Below, piece after piece: positions 6,927 to 56,495 of a DNA stretch of 64,000 nt. The translations under genes and the position numbers were made by a program. Location: NCBI GenBank assembly GCA_006742785.1, contig AP019755.1, positions 930,001-994,000 of the forward strand, read 5' to 3'. A model generated the notes under the pieces. The model was not told the DNA's origin. It ran no database searches and worked only from the letters and a program-made list of their open reading frames with translations. Every line of letters begins with the position of its first letter. Positions within the stretch are counted from its first letter, which is position 1. The DNA comes from Nitrosomonas stercoris. Its GTDB lineage: Bacteria; Pseudomonadota; Gammaproteobacteria; Burkholderiales; Nitrosomonadaceae.

Positions 6927-8442
6927 CACCCCTGTATATACCACAGCCGAAATCCGTAAGATTGAATCACTAGCACTCTCCATACTGCCTAATCCACCTA
7001 CGCTGATGGAGAAAGCTGGATTAGCTGCTGCTGAAATTGTACGTGCCCGATTACTAGTAGGTGACAAACATCGAATCTTGATTCTAGCTGGGCCAGGAAA
7101 TAATGGTGGAGATGCACTTGTAGCAGCGCGCTATCTACATCGTTGGGAGAAACAAGTCACACTAGTATTTACCGGCGAAGCGGAACAATTATCACAAGAT
7201 GCTAAGCAAGCATGGGAACAATGGCAATTCACTGGGGAGATGGTTCACCAGGACATTCCGGCTAACGGTCAATGGGATGCTGTAATCGATGGCTTGTTTG
7301 GTATCGGTCTGAGTGAAACACGCCCGTTAACGGAAAAATACCAGCAACTTATTCACCAGATCAATCAACTCAATCTGCCGGTACTTGCGCTTGATATTCC
7401 CAGTGGTTTGCTCAGTGATTCTGGTCGCGTGCCGAAGGTTGCAGTTAAGGCTACGATTACTGCCACCTTCATCGCACTCAAACCAGGTTTGCTGACCCAT
7501 GATGGCTGCGATCATTGTGGCGAAATTATTGTGTGTAATCTAGCGCTCAATACCGTGGCACTCCTTGCCCCCCATCATTGGTTGCTGGATCGGGCGAGTA
7601 TTGCAACCAGATTACCTGCTCCCCGATTGGCTAACAGCCACAAAGGTACGTACGGCCGACTGGGTATTTTAGGCGGAGCCAGCGGTATGGTCGGAGCAGC
7701 TTTGTTGGCCGGACGTGCGGCACTTAAGCTAGGAGCAGGGCGAGTTTATCTGGGGTTATTAGTTCAGAAAGATGCGCCAATCGTTGACCCACTTCAACCA
7801 GAGTTAATGTTGCTCCCACCTTCCGATATCTTTGATCCAAATTTTCTGGATAGTCTGGTAATCGGCCCTGGTTTAGGGCAGGAAATTGCTGCCTGTATTT
7901 ACCTGGAACAGGCGCTACAGACTAATCTACCGTTAGTACTGGATGCGGATGCACTTAACTTAATTGCGGCTTATACAGAACTAAGCGATATCCTCAAAGC
8001 ACGCCAAGCTACCACCATACTCACCCCTCATCCGGCGGAAGCAGCACGTTTACTGAATACAACCGTGGATGAAATACAATGCAACCGGCTCAATGCAGCA
8101 CAAATCCTCGTACAACAGTTTAATTGCGCCATCGTCTTGAAAGGAGCAGGCAGTATCTGTGCATTGCCGGATGGATCTTGTCATTTCAATACTAGCGGCA
8201 ATCCTGGCTTGAGCAGCGCTGGGACAGGCGATGTGCTTTCAGGTTTTCTAGGTGCGTTACTGGTAAAGGGATTCCCCGCGGAAAATGCGTTGTTATTGGC
8301 TGTTCACCTACACGGTGCAGCTGCAGATGTATTACTAGAACAGCAGCACGGACCAATCGGTATGACTGCTTCAGACATCATTCCCGCTGCTCGTGATCTA
8401 TTGAATCGCTGGGTTTATTCAAACAAAACACATGATTCGTGA
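6919..8442 (+). CDS. nnr: Bifunctional NAD(P)H-hydrate epimerase / ADP-dependent NAD(P)HX dehydratase
   Basis: Two fused domains repair hydrated NADH and NADPH. The N-terminal YjeF_N epimerase (about residues 1-210) shows AGPGNNGGDALVAARYL, and the C-terminal ribokinase-like dehydratase (about 220-505) shows LTPHPAEAARLL and the catalytic-loop GLSSAGTGDVLSGF. The length (507 residues) is normal for the fusion. A GTG at 6907 could start the frame earlier, but ATG 6919 has a GGTGAG ribosome site at the right distance and overlaps the end of the GFA gene, so it is preferred. The downstream helicase gene converges on it with an 11-base gap. Confidence 0.95.
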   Translation: MNSTPVYTTAEIRKIESLALSILPNPPTLMEKAGLAAAEIVRARLLVGDKHRILILAGPGNNGGDALVAARYLHRWEKQVTLVFTGEAEQLSQDAKQAWEQWQFTGEMVHQDIPANGQWDAVIDGLFGIGLSETRPLTEKYQQLIHQINQLNLPVLALDIPSGLLSDSGRVPKVAVKATITATFIALKPGLLTHDGCDHCGEIIVCNLALNTVALLAPHHWLLDRASIATRLPAPRLANSHKGTYGRLGILGGASGMVGAALLAGRAALKLGAGRVYLGLLVQKDAPIVDPLQPELMLLPPSDIFDPNFLDSLVIGPGLGQEIAACIYLEQALQTNLPLVLDADALNLIAAYTELSDILKARQATTILTPHPAEAARLLNTTVDEIQCNRLNAAQILVQQFNCAIVLKGAGSICALPDGSCHFNTSGNPGLSSAGTGDVLSGFLGALLVKGFPAENALLLAVHLHGAAADVLLEQQHGPIGMTASDIIPAARDLLNRWVYSNKTHDS

Positions 8443-8453
8443 CTAGGAAAATA

Positions 8454-10070
8454 TCAGTGTGCTTCACACACATCTAATGCGGGTAAACCGGGAGAAATTC
8501 GTTGAGAAGCGGCAAGATGAAAATGAGGCGATAACCGCAATTTTACACGTGTTTCTCCCCGCAAAATGCCTCTGGCAGTGGGAGCCAACTGCAGAATAAA
8601 ACGCTCTTCGCCAAGGGTGAAATAACCCAATGCCAGCAAATGTCTGAACACAAAACGCCAGCCCTCAATACTAAGTTCCTGACCGATGCCAAACGTACTG
8701 ACGTGATCATGTCCCCATTGCCGGACGCGATCGGTACGCTTGCCGGTGAGCACATCAATCAAATATTCCACGCCAAAACTTTGGCCAGTCCGATAAACAC
8801 AAGAAAGCGCTTTTTGCGCAGCCACCGTAACGTCTTGCACTGGATTAGTTGTCAAGCAGGTATCACAGTAACCGCAGGGTGAATGATTGGCAGCAGACGG
8901 TTCGCCCAAATAACCAAGCAGATGCATTCTGCGGCAGGCTGTAGTTTCACAAAATGCCAGCAGTGCCTCCAAACGAGCAATAGCTGCCTGTTTGACAGGT
9001 GCCGGCAATGCAGCAGTATCTGTTTCAATCCGCAAGCGCAGCCAGATAATATCGCCAGCGCCGTATACCATCCAGGCATTGGCTGGCAGGCCATCCCGTC
9101 CGGCGCGGCCAGTTTCCTGATAATAGCTTTCAATACTGCGCGGCAAATCCAGATGGGCAACAAAACGAATATCAGGTTTATCAATTCCTAACCCAAACGC
9201 TGAAGTTGCCACCATCACAATATTATCCGCTTGTAGAAATTTTTTCTGATGCTGGTTGCGGGTCGCGGTTTCCATGCCAGCATGATAAGCAAGTGCTGGA
9301 ATATTATTATTGTTCAGCCAAGCCGCGGTGGTTTCCGTCTTTTTACGTGATCGACAATAAACAATACCTGCTTCACCAGGATGGTTTCCGCGGATAAAAT
9401 TTAACAACTGCCGCCGACTGTCGGTACGGGCAGTAATACGGTAACAAATATTGGGGCGATCAAAGCTGCTGATAAACACTCGCGCTCGCTCCAAAGCAAG
9501 GCAGCGCAGAATATCAGCACGGGTTTTAGCATCGGCGCTGGCTGTTAAAGCAATACGCGGAACCTGCGGAAATTTCTGCGGCAATATTGCAAGCTGGCCA
9601 TACTCGGGCCGAAAATCATGTCCCCATTGAGAAACACAGTGCGCCTCATCAATGGCAAACAAAGCAATAGAGACTTGTTGTAGCAGCGCACGAAAACGAA
9701 TTGTTAGTAATCTTTCCGGCGCGACATAAACCAGATCATATTCGCCGGCCAGCATGTTTTGTTCAATGGTTCTGACTGCTGCAAAGGGCAACGAAGAATT
9801 AAGATAGGTCGCGCGTATACCGTGTTCACACAGCACTGTAACCTGATTTTCCATCAGTGCTATCAGTGGCGAGATAACTATTGTGACACCATCTCTTAAT
9901 AAGGCTGGTAATTGATAACACAATGATTTGCCACCACCTGTGGGCATCAATACTAAGCAGCTATTGCCAGCTGCAACATACGTAATAATTTCCGCTTGTT
10001 GCCCACGAAATTCATGATAACCAAAGATTTCCTGGAGAAGAGTTTGAGCACGAGCAGCCAAAGCAGTCAT
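8454..10070 (-). CDS. RecQ-type ATP-dependent DNA helicase (no HRDC domain)
   Basis: This is a superfamily-2 helicase of 538 residues. The Walker A motif is LMPTGGGKS (41-49), the DEAH box is in AIDEAHCVSQWGHDFRPEY, and motif VI is YQETGRAGRDG. The RecQ-specific zinc subdomain follows (CRRMHLLGYLGE then CGYCDTC), and then a winged-helix region. RecQ proteins unwind 3'-tailed DNA in recombinational repair. The protein ends soon after the winged helix, so the HRDC domain found in the roughly 600-residue E. coli RecQ is absent. It is either a short RecQ or a paralogue. Its start codon overlaps the stop of the Hsp15 gene by four bases (ATGA), so the two are co-translated. Confidence 0.93.
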   Translation of the reverse strand: MTALAARAQTLLQEIFGYHEFRGQQAEIITYVAAGNSCLVLMPTGGGKSLCYQLPALLRDGVTIVISPLIALMENQVTVLCEHGIRATYLNSSLPFAAVRTIEQNMLAGEYDLVYVAPERLLTIRFRALLQQVSIALFAIDEAHCVSQWGHDFRPEYGQLAILPQKFPQVPRIALTASADAKTRADILRCLALERARVFISSFDRPNICYRITARTDSRRQLLNFIRGNHPGEAGIVYCRSRKKTETTAAWLNNNNIPALAYHAGMETATRNQHQKKFLQADNIVMVATSAFGLGIDKPDIRFVAHLDLPRSIESYYQETGRAGRDGLPANAWMVYGAGDIIWLRLRIETDTAALPAPVKQAAIARLEALLAFCETTACRRMHLLGYLGEPSAANHSPCGYCDTCLTTNPVQDVTVAAQKALSCVYRTGQSFGVEYLIDVLTGKRTDRVRQWGHDHVSTFGIGQELSIEGWRFVFRHLLALGYFTLGEERFILQLAPTARGILRGETRVKLRLSPHFHLAASQRISPGLPALDVCEAH

Positions 10071-30030: not shown

Positions 30031-30064
30031 CAGCAGAATGCTTAAACCCAACTAGGTAGTGTAG

Positions 30065-51923: not shown

Positions 51924-52298
51924 TCACGAAGGAGATTTTGCATGACTTTGGCTACAGTTCGCGCCACCTTGCGCAATTGTGATGGCTTTATCATTTCGCT
52001 GCAGCGCTTCCTGCATAATCTCGGTCTTGAAACGTTGAACAAAGAACAGTAATAATCCGCGTGATAAGGGGTTTTGCCATATTTTTATGGCAGGTTTTTG
52101 CATATTTATTTTTGCAAATCCTGCTGTAAAACCCGCCCCTCCCGCAATAATCGGCCAGATTAGAGGATGTGCAGCCAGCTGGTGGCGTATTTGTACAGCT
52201 TTGTCGATGTAATGCTGACGAGCCGTTGTGATACGCGCACGAGCTATACGTATTTCATTCAGATTTTTGTAAAGTCCTATCATTGGTTGTCTTGTCAT
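51924..52298 (-). CDS. Conserved hypothetical protein, YqjK position
   Basis: This 124-residue protein is basic, with one hydrophobic stretch (HPLIWPIIAGGAGFTAGFA) and a later amphipathic segment (GLLLFFVQRFKTEIMQEA). I do not recognise a family. It overlaps the YqjE-like gene by 44 bases and is the third gene of a yqjD-yqjE-like set, where enterobacteria have yqjK. It is likely a small membrane-associated partner. Confidence 0.55.
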   Translation of the reverse strand: MTRQPMIGLYKNLNEIRIARARITTARQHYIDKAVQIRHQLAAHPLIWPIIAGGAGFTAGFAKINMQKPAIKIWQNPLSRGLLLFFVQRFKTEIMQEALQRNDKAITIAQGGANCSQSHAKSPS

Positions 52299-52782
52299 GC
52301 GTCGAAGTGCTTACCAGACCTGTTATCGTTCGATGCAGCTGTGCCCGTGTTTCGGGCAAACTTATCCGATGCAGGCAATACCGTAGACCATATAGCGCCA
52401 AAATGAGGCAGAACGCTAAAATTATCACAAGTATAGTGAGTGCGAGTATCCAGGAGCCGAACCATTTTGCTAATAACAATGCAGTGAGCATCGTTACAGA
52501 TAAGCTTAAGGCCAGGACAAAAAATATTGCGAGTACGATGCATAAGAAAGCAGCGGTTGCGATGCTGCGTGCCAGCTGCCATTCCGCAGTAAATAGTTGA
52601 CGCTGCGCTTGCATTAATTCTTGCAGCGCTAGCAAAACTTCCTTTAGTTCAGTTATCCAACGCAATGATAATGCCAACGAATCTGTATGATGCTTCGAAC
52701 TAAACACAATGTTTCGCTCGATCACTTTGCGCAGAAACTGTTGGCCTCCTGTCAACGACGAATCAAACGACCAATAATCCAT
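52255..52782 (-). CDS. YqjE-type phage-holin-superfamily membrane protein
   Basis: The protein has 175 residues. An amphipathic helix (TELKEVLLALQELMQAQRQL) is followed by two long membrane helices (about 75-100 and 105-130), the layout of the YqjE/phage holin III family. The N-terminus overlaps the previous gene by 31 bases, so the true start may be later. It is paired with a YqjD-like protein as in E. coli, where YqjD tethers ribosomes to the membrane in stationary phase. Confidence 0.75.
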   Translation of the reverse strand: MDYWSFDSSLTGGQQFLRKVIERNIVFSSKHHTDSLALSLRWITELKEVLLALQELMQAQRQLFTAEWQLARSIATAAFLCIVLAIFFVLALSLSVTMLTALLLAKWFGSWILALTILVIILAFCLILALYGLRYCLHRISLPETRAQLHRTITGLVSTSTHDKTTNDRTLQKSE

Positions 52783-53120
52783 CCGACTGCTAGCGCGATC
52801 ACAATAGATTGGCCTGGATTCTCTTGAATAAAAGTACGTGTGTTTCCGGCATAATCACTCGCTTGTTCTACCAGGTCATCGACTGCTTCGCGTCCGCGTT
52901 CACCCGCAGCTTCAGCGATATTCACTGCTTTTTTTGTAACCTTGCCCAATTTTTCTGTACCTTGCTCTACACCGTCTCCGGCCGTATCTGCTATTTTATC
53001 TAATGCGGTACTAATACGTTTGACCGCTTCGTTTGCTGCATCTTGTACTTTCTGAACGGTTTTTTCGATTTGTTCTGCTGCTTTATCTGCTTTTTCGTCA
53101 GATATTGATTTTTCAACCAT
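52752..53120 (-). CDS. YqjD/ElaB-family (DUF883) tail-anchored protein
   Basis: 122 residues, mostly Ala/Lys/Glu-rich helix or coiled coil ([40 protein letters not shown]). A C-terminal membrane anchor follows (SIVIALAVGWIIGRLIRR), and the pattern is diagnostic of DUF883. In E. coli these proteins sit in the inner membrane, bind ribosomes and rise under RpoS. A good AAGGAGA ribosome site precedes the ATG. Confidence 0.88.
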   Translation of the reverse strand: MVEKSISDEKADKAAEQIEKTVQKVQDAANEAVKRISTALDKIADTAGDGVEQGTEKLGKVTKKAVNIAEAAGERGREAVDDLVEQASDYAGNTRTFIQENPGQSIVIALAVGWIIGRLIRR

Positions 53121-53286
53121 GATTTATCTCCTTTAGTATGGGCGTCTGCTTACTTTGAGAATCATGAATAATTTCATGAAATTGGTATCACAGACGTGTT
53201 TTTCTTACGAAGGGATTGGATTGCCGCCTGGCATATTCAATCAGCCTTGTTCTTGTAAAATATTTATGCTTTTTTGGTATTGTTTG

Positions 53287-53619
53287 TCAAGGTTTCACGA
53301 CCAGATTGTTATATACCTTGGTAACCCCCTTGACAGAATATGCCAATTCGGTGGCACGATCTTTTTCAGCTTGGGATGTGGTAAATCCAGACAGTTGTAC
53401 TTCGCCTCCTTCTATGGTCTTGACGTTGATGTTAGCTGCTGAAGTGCCAGGGTCATTCGTCAATCTGGCTTTGACCTCTGTTGTAATGATGGAGCCGTCT
53501 ACATATTCACCCACAGATTCCTGGTGTTGCGCCACTGAACAGCTGGTAATCATTACTGTAGAGGCGCCAGCGATAACTGCAATTGCAATTGCAATTGCAA
53601 TTGCACGCGATATTGTCAT
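53287..53619 (-). CDS. BON-domain lipoprotein-like stress protein (OsmY-related)
   Basis: The protein has 110 residues. A signal segment contains a repeated Ala-Ile tract and a Cys (VMITSCSVAQ) that could be a lipidation site. One BON domain spans about 45-110 (IITTEVKARLTNDPGTSAAN, VQLSGFTTSQAEKDRATEL). BON domains bind membranes or other envelope components. The Ala-Ile tract is encoded by four GCAATT repeats (53579-53605), which could change number. A second BON gene lies 0.7 kb upstream in the same direction. Confidence 0.85.
   Translation of the reverse strand: MTISRAIAIAIAIAVIAGASTVMITSCSVAQHQESVGEYVDGSIITTEVKARLTNDPGTSAANINVKTIEGGEVQLSGFTTSQAEKDRATELAYSVKGVTKVYNNLVVKP
53579..53605. 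repeat. GCAATT hexanucleotide microsatellite inside a signal peptide
   Basis: Four perfect GCAATT units plus GCA lie within the signal-peptide codons of the BON protein. Gain or loss of a unit keeps the frame and changes the hydrophobic core by two residues (Ala-Ile). Confidence 0.9.
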
Positions 53620-53722
53620 GATGTTCTCCTTTGTAAAAGTGAATAAGTTATGTACTTGTGTTAGTGAGTTTAGAAAATATTACAACTTCACGTAGTATTT
53701 TGTGTACTCATCCCTAGAGTGA

Positions 53723-53896
53723 TCAAGCCACCATTCCAATACCGAGAAACCCGAGAGTAAGCAATACGAGTGTGACGAGTACAAACAGAAAGAAGAGGAG
53801 CTTCGCAATGGATGCCGTATTGGAACTGGTATTTCGGAAACCCAAAATGCCAGAAATCACTGAAATTATCGCAAAAATGATGGCCCACTTAAGCAT
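53723..53896 (-). CDS. DUF1328/YtjA-family small membrane protein
   Basis: This 57-residue protein is below usual gene-calling length limits. Translation from ATG 53896 reads MLKWAIIFAIISVISGILGF and continues through AKLLFFLFVLVTLVLLTLG to a stop at 53723. It has two membrane helices with the SGILGF motif typical of DUF1328. The family has no known function and is often found among general-stress genes. Its start lies about 200 bases downstream of the CsbD gene. An overlapping longer frame on the same strand has no family features and is rejected. Confidence 0.88.
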   Translation of the reverse strand: MLKWAIIFAIISVISGILGFRNTSSNTASIAKLLFFLFVLVTLVLLTLGFLGIGMVA

Positions 53897-54095
53897 ACAA
53901 TCACCCCTGATTTGGTTGAGATTCTAAAAAATCCATAAGCAACTATCTCCGCTACCGTTTCTGCGTTAAAAGACAGCTCGAATATTCGTTTGCTGAACAT
54001 AAATCCTGTTTCTCGATTAATTGAATGATATTGGCCAGCAAGCTGCGCGAAATACACCAACCAGCTTGATGTATTTCGCGTAAGCATGGATTGCC

Positions 54096-54293
54096 TTATA
54101 AAGAATCGTGAAACTTTTTGATCTGTTTTTTGGCCTCATCTCGAGCGATACCATAGCGTTCCTGCAATATTCCCTCCAGATACTCGCTGTTTCCTTCGGC
54201 AACTTTTAAATCATCATCGGTAAGCTCGCCCCAATGTTCTTTGATTTTTCCTGTTATTTGTTTCCATTGTCCCTTGATTTTGTCTTCGTTCAT
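54096..54293 (-). CDS. CsbD-family general stress protein
   Basis: Starting at ATG 54293, the product is 65 residues: MNEDKIKGQWKQITGKIKEH, then WGELTDDDLKVAEGNSEYLEG and a basic end. This is the classic CsbD pattern (E. coli YjbJ), a very abundant stationary-phase/osmotic-stress protein of unknown mechanism. Upstream in-frame codons would overlap the BON gene and do not belong to the family. Confidence 0.92.
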   Translation of the reverse strand: MNEDKIKGQWKQITGKIKEHWGELTDDDLKVAEGNSEYLEGILQERYGIARDEAKKQIKKFHDSL

Positions 54294-54348
54294 TTTGGAT
54301 TCCTTTTTTTGTTTATTTGAAAAATATATAGTTTTTACTAACCGACAT

Positions 54349-54711
54349 TTAGTTAGCTGGAGTGGCATCGACTGTCAGGCCCGAGATATCAACTCTTACG
54401 ACATCTTTGACACTTTGGGCAACGGCTTCTGCTTTTTTAATAAGAGTTTCATCTGGTTGTGTTCCGGTGAGCGTGACTACCCCATTATTTGTTTCAACTG
54501 ATATGTCGTTACTTTTGATGCCTTCAGTAATAGCTAGCTCTGCTTTGACTTTGGTGGTGATTACCGTGTCGCTGATTGATTGAGTGCTATCTGTAGATTC
54601 GTTTTCAAGAGAGGGTACTGTTGTTTCCATTGATTGTGCTGTTACTGTTCCGGCACTGAAGATCAACAAAGTCATTGCAGTAATAGTCGAAAATAAAATT
54701 TTTATTTTCAT
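54349..54711 (-). CDS. BON-domain periplasmic protein (OsmY-like)
   Basis: The protein has 120 residues with a Sec signal peptide (cleavage after TVTAQ, about 26). A single BON domain covers about 45-115 (TVITTKVKAELAITEGIKSN, NNGVVTLTGTQPDETLIKKA). OsmY-type proteins are induced by osmotic shock and support the outer membrane. It leads the leftward run of small stress genes and faces the PAS-LuxR regulator across a 311-base gap. Confidence 0.88.
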   Translation of the reverse strand: MKIKILFSTITAMTLLIFSAGTVTAQSMETTVPSLENESTDSTQSISDTVITTKVKAELAITEGIKSNDISVETNNGVVTLTGTQPDETLIKKAEAVAQSVKDVVRVDISGLTVDATPAN

Positions 54712-54821
54712 GATTATTCTCCTTATTTTATGAAAAATTAAAATTGGTCTGCAGATTTCCGGCGTGTGTATGAGTCAGCTATATATTCATTGATCAGATT
54801 TACCTATCGTACTTTTGCCGC

Positions 54822-54868
54822 TAGTGGCTACCGGTTACTTGCGTGTACAACAAGGTCGATAGCCACTA
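54822..54868. promoter_or_regulatory. Inverted repeat in the stress-cluster/regulator intergenic region
   Basis: TAGTGGCTA (54822-54830) and TAGCCACTA (54860-54868) are perfect complements in the gap between the divergent BON gene and the PAS-LuxR regulator gene. It could be an operator for the regulator or a leader stem. The rest of the 311-base gap shows nothing that I can name. Confidence 0.4.
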
Positions 54869-55022
54869 CTTAACTGATTGACCGCATTTATTAAATCATG
54901 GCATTGCAAGTTCAGGTAAGATGCAAATTTACTAAATGATGTAGTATTTTCATACCATTAGCATTTTGCGGTTTGACATGGAAACTCCAGCTCGAATAGA
55001 GGTTTTTTTATGAAGGATTCAT

Positions 55023-56495
55023 ATGGATACGACGCAGGATGAGCTGGATATCGGCAGAGAGCAGTTTAGGCAATTGGTCGCGCATTTGGTTGAAGGAGTG
55101 CTCCTGATTAATCCGGGTGGCAAGATTACATGGGCCAACAAAGCTGCACTTGAAATGCATGGCTGTGAGCAACTTGCAGAACTGGGAACAACTGTTGATC
55201 AATACCATAAACGCTTTGTGCTGACGTATTTGAATCACCATAAACTTGCTGTGAAACAGTATCCGATAATGCGCGCTGCTTCTGGTGAAGAATTCGATGA
55301 CGTCAGAGTGGAATTAACCTTGCATCGAAGAAATTCTGATTTTCGGCGTGTGCTTGTCATGCGCAGTATATTGTTCACAGATGTGAATGACGATGTTGGG
55401 GCTGTAGCACTTCTGATCAAAGATGAGACTGAACAGGTTAATGTGGAAGAGCGTTTTGAGCGCGCTTTTGCGGTTAACCCGGCTCCTGCCGTGATTTGTC
55501 GGTTATCAGATACTCGATATATTAAAGTAAGTCGTGGTTTTCTGAAAATGACGGGTTACAGTAGTGATCAGGTGATTGATAAATCACTGTATGAGTTAGA
55601 TGTTTTGCGCGAGGCTGAAAATCGCAAACAAGCTATTCAGTCACTACAAAGAGGAGAATCCATTGCGCAACAGGAAGCAATATTACGTGTACATGGGGGA
55701 GATGATAAATTTGTGATTGTGGCTGGTCAGCCAATTGAATTTGCTGATGAAGCGTGCATGATATTCACCTTTGTCGATCTGGATGCGCGTAAGCAGGCTG
55801 AGGAATCGTTGAAGCATAGTGAAGAGGTTTTTTTCAAAGCTTTCGATCTAGCACCAACTCCGATGATGGTGTGTATCGAACCCGCATGGCGTGTGGTTGC
55901 CGTTAACACCTCTTTTGAATCCGTTACTGGTTACGATAACGAGAAAGTTTACGGTAAAACTGTAACTGAAATTGGTTTATGGAATGATAAGAGGATATTA
56001 GAAATGATGCGCAGCGAGTTAGAGGAAAATGGTGGCATTCGTAATCATGAAATACCATTGTGCGGGACGGACGGCATCATGTTGGATACGCTGTTTTCAG
56101 CAGAATTTGTCACAATTAATGATGATGCCTGTGTGTTGTGCGTGTTTGAGGACATTACAGATCGTAAACGTACTGAAATGGAATTAGTTTCTGCTATTGA
56201 TGCGGTCATGCAAGATTCATCTTGGTTTAGTCAAACAGTGATGGAAAAACTTGCACAATTGCGCCAACCCGGAGCAACTGACTCAAAGTTGGAGCTTTCT
56301 GTTTTGACAGCGCGTGAAAAAGAGGTGTTGAGTCTGATTTGCCAAGGTAAAAGTAATACTGAAATTGCATCTGCACTAAATTTATCACCTAATACGGTAC
56401 GCAACCATGTTGCGTCAGTGTATGACAAGATTGGCGTACACCGACGTAGTGATGCTGTTGTTTGGGGACGCGAACGCGGATTAGCTAGTTATTGA
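55023..56495 (+). CDS. PAS-domain LuxR-type transcriptional regulator
   Basis: This is a soluble regulator of 490 residues. Three PAS-like sensor modules follow one another (about 15-130, 140-255, 265-385; for example RGFLKMTGYSSDQVIDKSLY and TSFESVTGYDNEKVYGKTV). A LuxR/GerE helix-turn-helix closes the protein (LTAREKEVLSLICQGKSNTE, NLSPNTVRNHVASVYDKIGV). No kinase or receiver domain is present, so it may sense redox, a ligand or light directly. It is divergent from the small stress genes, which are the obvious candidate targets. Confidence 0.88.
   Translation: MDTTQDELDIGREQFRQLVAHLVEGVLLINPGGKITWANKAALEMHGCEQLAELGTTVDQYHKRFVLTYLNHHKLAVKQYPIMRAASGEEFDDVRVELTLHRRNSDFRRVLVMRSILFTDVNDDVGAVALLIKDETEQVNVEERFERAFAVNPAPAVICRLSDTRYIKVSRGFLKMTGYSSDQVIDKSLYELDVLREAENRKQAIQSLQRGESIAQQEAILRVHGGDDKFVIVAGQPIEFADEACMIFTFVDLDARKQAEESLKHSEEVFFKAFDLAPTPMMVCIEPAWRVVAVNTSFESVTGYDNEKVYGKTVTEIGLWNDKRILEMMRSELEENGGIRNHEIPLCGTDGIMLDTLFSAEFVTINDDACVLCVFEDITDRKRTEMELVSAIDAVMQDSSWFSQTVMEKLAQLRQPGATDSKLELSVLTAREKEVLSLICQGKSNTEIASALNLSPNTVRNHVASVYDKIGVHRRSDAVVWGRERGLASY

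Follow-up and report, generated by a model that had tools for sequence, protein, structure and literature searches.

CsbD stress proteins are very widespread in bacteria, and genes of the CsbD, BON, DUF1328, and YqjDE types are included in the regulons of RpoS in Escherichia coli and of EcfG/PhyR in the Alphaproteobacteria. To our knowledge, the role of CsbD and its control beyond these sigma-factor regulons are poorly understood. RpoS and EcfG/PhyR are global sigma-factor systems, whereas the Nitrosomonas stercoris regulator described here has a local, unique candidate site in a genome without RpoS. PAS-LuxR one-component regulators are already known as a class. Like the Nitrosomonas regulator, EL222 (LOV-HTH), PimM/PteF, and VqmA have PAS fused to a LuxR-type HTH and no receiver domain, but they contain one PAS domain as opposed to three, the candidate operator reported here is much longer, and their targets are light, antibiotic, or quorum-sensing genes, whereas the putative targets here are CsbD/BON. 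The best structural match is PpsR/CrtJ, a photosynthesis repressor that binds palindromes; both it and the regulator are soluble and carry three PAS-type domains ahead of an HTH. However, the HTH of PpsR/CrtJ is Fis-like, not LuxR, and sequence identity with the regulator is very low, at 15-16%.

The window analyzed was a stretch of 64,000 nucleotides (64 kb) of the N. stercoris genome. The first-pass annotation had described seven leftward genes and a divergent three-PAS LuxR regulator at 51924-56495; the ORFs, strands, and coordinates were confirmed, and a Pfam run provided the family matches listed in Table 1. The CsbD ORF as called mechanically was 25 codons too long, and the start was placed at 54293 (MNEDKIKG) because of family similarity and a good ribosome site there. 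Gaps of ~100-200 bp separate CsbD, DUF1328, the second BON gene, and DUF883, and the YqjE-like gene overlaps both adjoining genes. The YqjD-like label is likely and is not certified by Pfam; the position of the hypothetical gene suggests the YqjK-like third gene of a yqjDEK-type operon. Two other CsbD genes are present in the source genome (L215:3692-4009 and 8407-8613; G000:C1 377691-382613), near TonB-receptor/FecIR-like genes, and the operator described below is absent at both. RpoS was not found in the source genome, in which the only matches were RpoD-, RpoH-, and FliA-like and all fell under the curated cut-off; control must therefore differ from the E. coli scheme.

Table 1. Coordinates of the island genes, the regulator, and the candidate operator in the window.
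Feature	Position	Strand	Basis or remark
Hypothetical protein	51924..52298	-	Without Pfam match; overlaps YqjE-like gene
YqjE-like (holin superfamily III) membrane protein	52255..52782	-	Phage_holin_3_6 (PF07332) 1.5e-6, barely over cut-off
DUF883/YqjD-like protein, C-terminal glycine zipper	52752..53120	-	DUF883_C 1.4e-4, under gathering score
Second BON protein	53287..53619	-	Pfam 8.1e-20; kept in G014
DUF1328 small membrane protein	53723..53896	-	Pfam 2.8e-12; kept in G014
CsbD (YjbJ-like)	54096..54293	-	Pfam CsbD 8.6e-20; mechanical ORF start 54368
BON-domain protein, first gene facing regulator	54349..54711	-	Pfam BON 3.6e-16; N terminus signal-peptide-like
Candidate operator agatgcaaattt-ACTAAATGATGTAGT-attttcatacca	54919..54957, centre 54938		Between BON-CsbD and regulator
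PAS-PAS-PAS-LuxR(GerE) regulator, 490 aa	55023..56495	+	Pfam PAS x3 + GerE

The AlphaFold model of the regulator contains three PAS folds, a long helix (residues 379-414), and an HTH (430-484); the mean pLDDT was 84 and the pTM 0.43, so that the relative placement of the domains is unsure. The Pfam scan returned no receiver domain (no Response_reg match) and no autoinducer-binding domain, the N-terminal 380 residues being PAS, and the flavin-binding LOV signature GXNCRFLQ, with its reactive cysteine, is absent from the sequence. By Pfam the HTH is of the GerE/LuxR type and not of the Fis type, and the combination of PAS with a C-terminal GerE/LuxR HTH in a single polypeptide places the protein among the PAS-LuxR one-component regulators. 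In PDB searches the nearest solved structures were PpsR and the PAS pairs of DosP, NifL, and FixL, with EL222 chains also among the matches. Full-length alignments of the orthologues gave 36-73% identity; the HTH motif NTVRNHVA is almost invariant across them, and the HTH recognition region, like the operator site, hardly varies.

An ACTA-N7-TAGT block was first seen by aligning the divergent regions of the source genome (G000) and two other Nitrosomonadaceae genomes (G032 and G014), in both of which the candidate operator is conserved. Its centre is located 85 bp upstream of the regulator ATG and 227 bp upstream of the BON ATG. Using a matrix built without any Nitrosomonas site, the candidate operator scored 22.5, the next best site in 64 kb scored 15.1, and none of 200 simulated windows, whose best scores averaged 11.9, reached this value. 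It is the single match in the whole source genome with up to 3 mismatches allowed. A motif scan of the window identified no operator-like site upstream of DUF1328, the second BON gene, or the YqjDE-like genes. Three further candidates were dropped: a weak core upstream of BON (54811-54825), which is at the usual distance yet ranks 208th in the window; an ACTC-N7-GAGT palindrome at 53706, a single chance-like match; and an exact core at position 30058, which lies outside the best matrix scores of the window and was taken as chance.

The loci share a ~39-bp palindrome, AGRTGCRAATGC-ACYA-N7-TRGT-GCATTYGCAYCT, which consists of the inner ACYA-N7-TRGT flanked at about one helical turn by outer TGCRAAT arms, and which carries about 26 bits of information when symmetrised over 11 groups. 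Its usual position is 105-125 bp before the CsbD gene or 85-170 bp before that of the regulator. In 14 Burkholderia loci the spacing is identical to that of the Nitrosomonas block. Among 23 exact ACTA-N7-TAGT cores in the fetched loci, 19 are upstream of the regulator or CsbD, and the remaining 4, all from Pseudomonas, lie just past the regulator stop, ahead of the next gene. When matrices were built leaving out one family at a time, the best site of the locus fell within promoter regions, which make up 2-13% of the DNA and had been delimited with some of the data already inspected, in 63 of 76 loci. The misses were mostly low-scoring loci, the two f91 loci have a good site further upstream, and in part of the Sphingomonas-type and f85 loci the site is weak or absent. 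In Pseudomonas (L165:5593-5901, 7661-8629), there are sites in front of two genes: a DUF1652 gene, which lies downstream of the regulator, and a divergent gene for a membrane protein with no Pfam family. Membrane proteins resembling the latter are encoded at L043:11158-12147, L094:7989-8969, and L203:7207-8000.

An exact search of the 257-Gb collection with a strict form of the palindrome core found 25 places: 21 with the regulator, 3 with CsbD only, and 1 in a spirochaete assembly. The last, in a Spirochaetaceae MAG (L200:28-58), precedes an unrelated gene; the regulator is absent from that genome, and the match may represent chance or contamination. In Xanthomonas euvesicatoria (L202:6380-6410) and X. 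cissicola (L195:1505-1535), operator and CsbD are retained and the regulator was not found, in a search of the two genomes that was run without a positive control; with the same query, other Xanthomonas loci give matches at ~1e-140. These two CsbD-only sites look like relics.

Linkage was scanned by running CsbD and BON profiles built for this study on 75 fetched loci. A CsbD gene was located no more than 3 kb from the regulator in 58 of these (59/76 with the present locus added), and a BON gene in 24. About half of the loci come from one family, and the group count, in which the CsbD link is present in 8 of 12 family-level groups, is the fairer figure. One locus (L163) has a partial CsbD, detected by Pfam only, and no CsbD was present near the regulator in the Pseudomonas, f4, f60, and f85 loci. 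Most regulator-bearing genomes, which are multi-megabase, contain roughly 1-8 CsbD copies, and we estimate the probability of adjacency by chance to be in the region of one per cent. In five Burkholderia genomes most or all CsbD copies flank the regulator (2/2 in G401, G867, and G793; 2/3 in G728 and G625). The Burkholderia layout is as in Nitrosomonas: CsbD-BON leftward, the regulator rightward, then another CsbD, with which annotated records agree. Because it recurs in many unrelated genomes, the adjacency is more than chance.

The first-pass annotation had tentatively attributed the arrangement to betaproteobacterial nitrifiers as a group. Orthologues were found in 3 of 125 Nitrosomonadaceae genomes, namely the source genome, G032 (73% identity), and G014 (~81%), and eight sampled genomes of the family carry CsbD without the regulator. 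In G032, BON alone is beside the regulator and CsbD is gone. In G014 the regulator is split across two contig ends (L037:300-345 and L038:17520-17640), which carry the IS-like termini ACATAGCC and GGCTATGT with the same 8 bases, AATTTCAA, alongside each; the gene appears to be interrupted by an IS-like insertion, which would leave such a duplication, and the CsbD of this genome is missing about half its domain. Since only three of the 125 genomes have the regulator, one IS-cut and one without CsbD, it is, judged by gene content, rare among nitrifiers and not a general nitrifier trait. A YicC-Tim44-NUDIX-NfeD-SPFH block is kept in relatives, but different genes come after it, and the island is therefore at a lineage-specific junction.

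Outside the Nitrosomonadaceae, the regulator was found in 6/399 genomes of the order (threshold 1e-30), 56/399 genomes of family f31, home of the Burkholderia genomes (threshold 1e-60), 20/398 genomes across the phylum (threshold 1e-50), and 22 plasmid records from Rhizobium, Burkholderia, Microvirga, Sphingomonas, and others. From named records and gene content, we read f31 as Burkholderiaceae, f55 as Pseudomonas, and f78 as Sphingomonadaceae-like. These orthologues share 36-53% identity and occur sporadically in the Alpha-, Beta-, and Gammaproteobacteria, and plasmids or second chromosomes carry many of them. A single-protein peptide scan of genome contigs, too strict for ~48% identity, gave no match. 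In the tree, the Nitrosomonas pair falls outside the main Burkholderia clade and groups with a mixed set made up of f31, f4, and a single alphaproteobacterial row, a placement that fits horizontal movement but is no proof of it.

We consider it probable, on sequence comparison, that the regulator is a local, one-component, autoregulated CsbD/BON stress switch that does not control all seven genes. Its architecture, the linkage, the conserved palindrome, and the uniqueness of that palindrome in the source genome are direct readings; from sequence we further infer that the regulator binds the palindrome and activates. The protein would be a soluble switch whose three PAS domains sense some cytoplasmic signal and whose LuxR-type HTH binds the long palindrome as a dimer or pair of dimers. 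In Nitrosomonas it would most likely bind 54919-54957, controlling its own gene and the divergent BON-CsbD pair; DUF1328, the second BON gene, and the YqjDE-like genes, without a site of their own, would be reached by read-through at most. The activator role is suggested because in relatives, where ~115 bp separate the site from the CsbD start, a -10-like element comes shortly after the site, which is consistent with activation from next to or over the -35. A stress role for CsbD and BON is presumed from knowledge of these families.

The site might instead serve only self-control of the regulator, by autorepression or activation, with BON-CsbD answering to something else. This is conceivable because the distance to the BON start exceeds the usual ~115 bp to CsbD and the weak core at 54811-54825 is statistically unremarkable; the site is also nearest the regulator start, and many Burkholderia loci have it 106-158 bp upstream of the regulator. 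We nevertheless judge it unlikely, as in Comamonadaceae, Rhizobium, Xanthomonas, and Burkholderia the site also stands 105-125 bp before CsbD, and two Xanthomonas genomes keep it with CsbD after loss of the regulator.

The first-pass annotation had proposed that one local sensor runs the whole set. A local sensor-regulator tied to small general-stress genes is borne out, but extension to all seven genes as one stress regulon, through a single site and read-through, appears distinctly unlikely. All seven genes do run leftward from the divergent promoter, and G014 retains BON-CsbD-DUF1328-BON in unchanged order. Against this, the only operator-like site is between the regulator and BON-CsbD, the ~100-200 bp gaps further along the island contain none, G032 has only BON left, and the module elsewhere is the regulator with CsbD(+BON). 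The same holds for conservation of the neighbourhood: the full cluster is absent as a unit in relatives, and what occurs far outside the family is the regulator with CsbD(+BON). The regulator probably drives only part of the island.

That the palindrome is the target of another, unlinked transcription factor governing both the regulator and CsbD is improbable: X. euvesicatoria and X. cissicola hold the site without the regulator, but nearly all occurrences of the strict site in the 257 Gb adjoin the regulator, and a widespread factor should have sites elsewhere, whereas the source genome has one. Mere coincidence, in which small stress genes adjoin a PAS-LuxR gene by accident, agrees with the seven-gene set as a whole not being conserved in Nitrosomonadaceae, but it is contradicted by recurrent CsbD adjacency with a shared site in three proteobacterial classes and is scarcely credible.

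The CsbD/BON switch, comprising the regulator, a CsbD partner, and a long palindrome, appears to be a portable stress-response system that has so far gone undescribed. A full-text literature search, which covered few subscription papers so that a prior description is possible, returned no description of the three-PAS family, the CsbD link, or the operator. We lean towards a self-contained stress cassette in three classes of Proteobacteria, in which the three-PAS LuxR regulator and the ~39-bp nested palindrome, perhaps occupied by two dimers side by side, control the regulator itself as well as CsbD, joined in some lineages by BON, DUF1652, or a conserved membrane protein, independently of RpoS/EcfG, and which has undergone patchy spread and decay, often on plasmids or second chromosomes. 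A long recognisable operator found from Nitrosomonas to Burkholderia, Xanthomonas, Pseudomonas, and Rhizobium offers a handle on the signal, the regulon, and CsbD function in laboratory strains that are easy to work with, and the regulon in other genomes is predictable by searching for the site.

Two arrangements outside the Nitrosomonadaceae were also recorded. On a Rhizobium lusitanum plasmid (L101:5851-9179), the regulator is followed by a tandem second PAS protein, with DUF1328 ~4 kb off and no CsbD. In the Sphingomonadaceae-like f78 (L169-L177), genomes carry up to three regulator copies, most followed by several CsbD genes, and one genome (G1043) has 22 CsbD matches.
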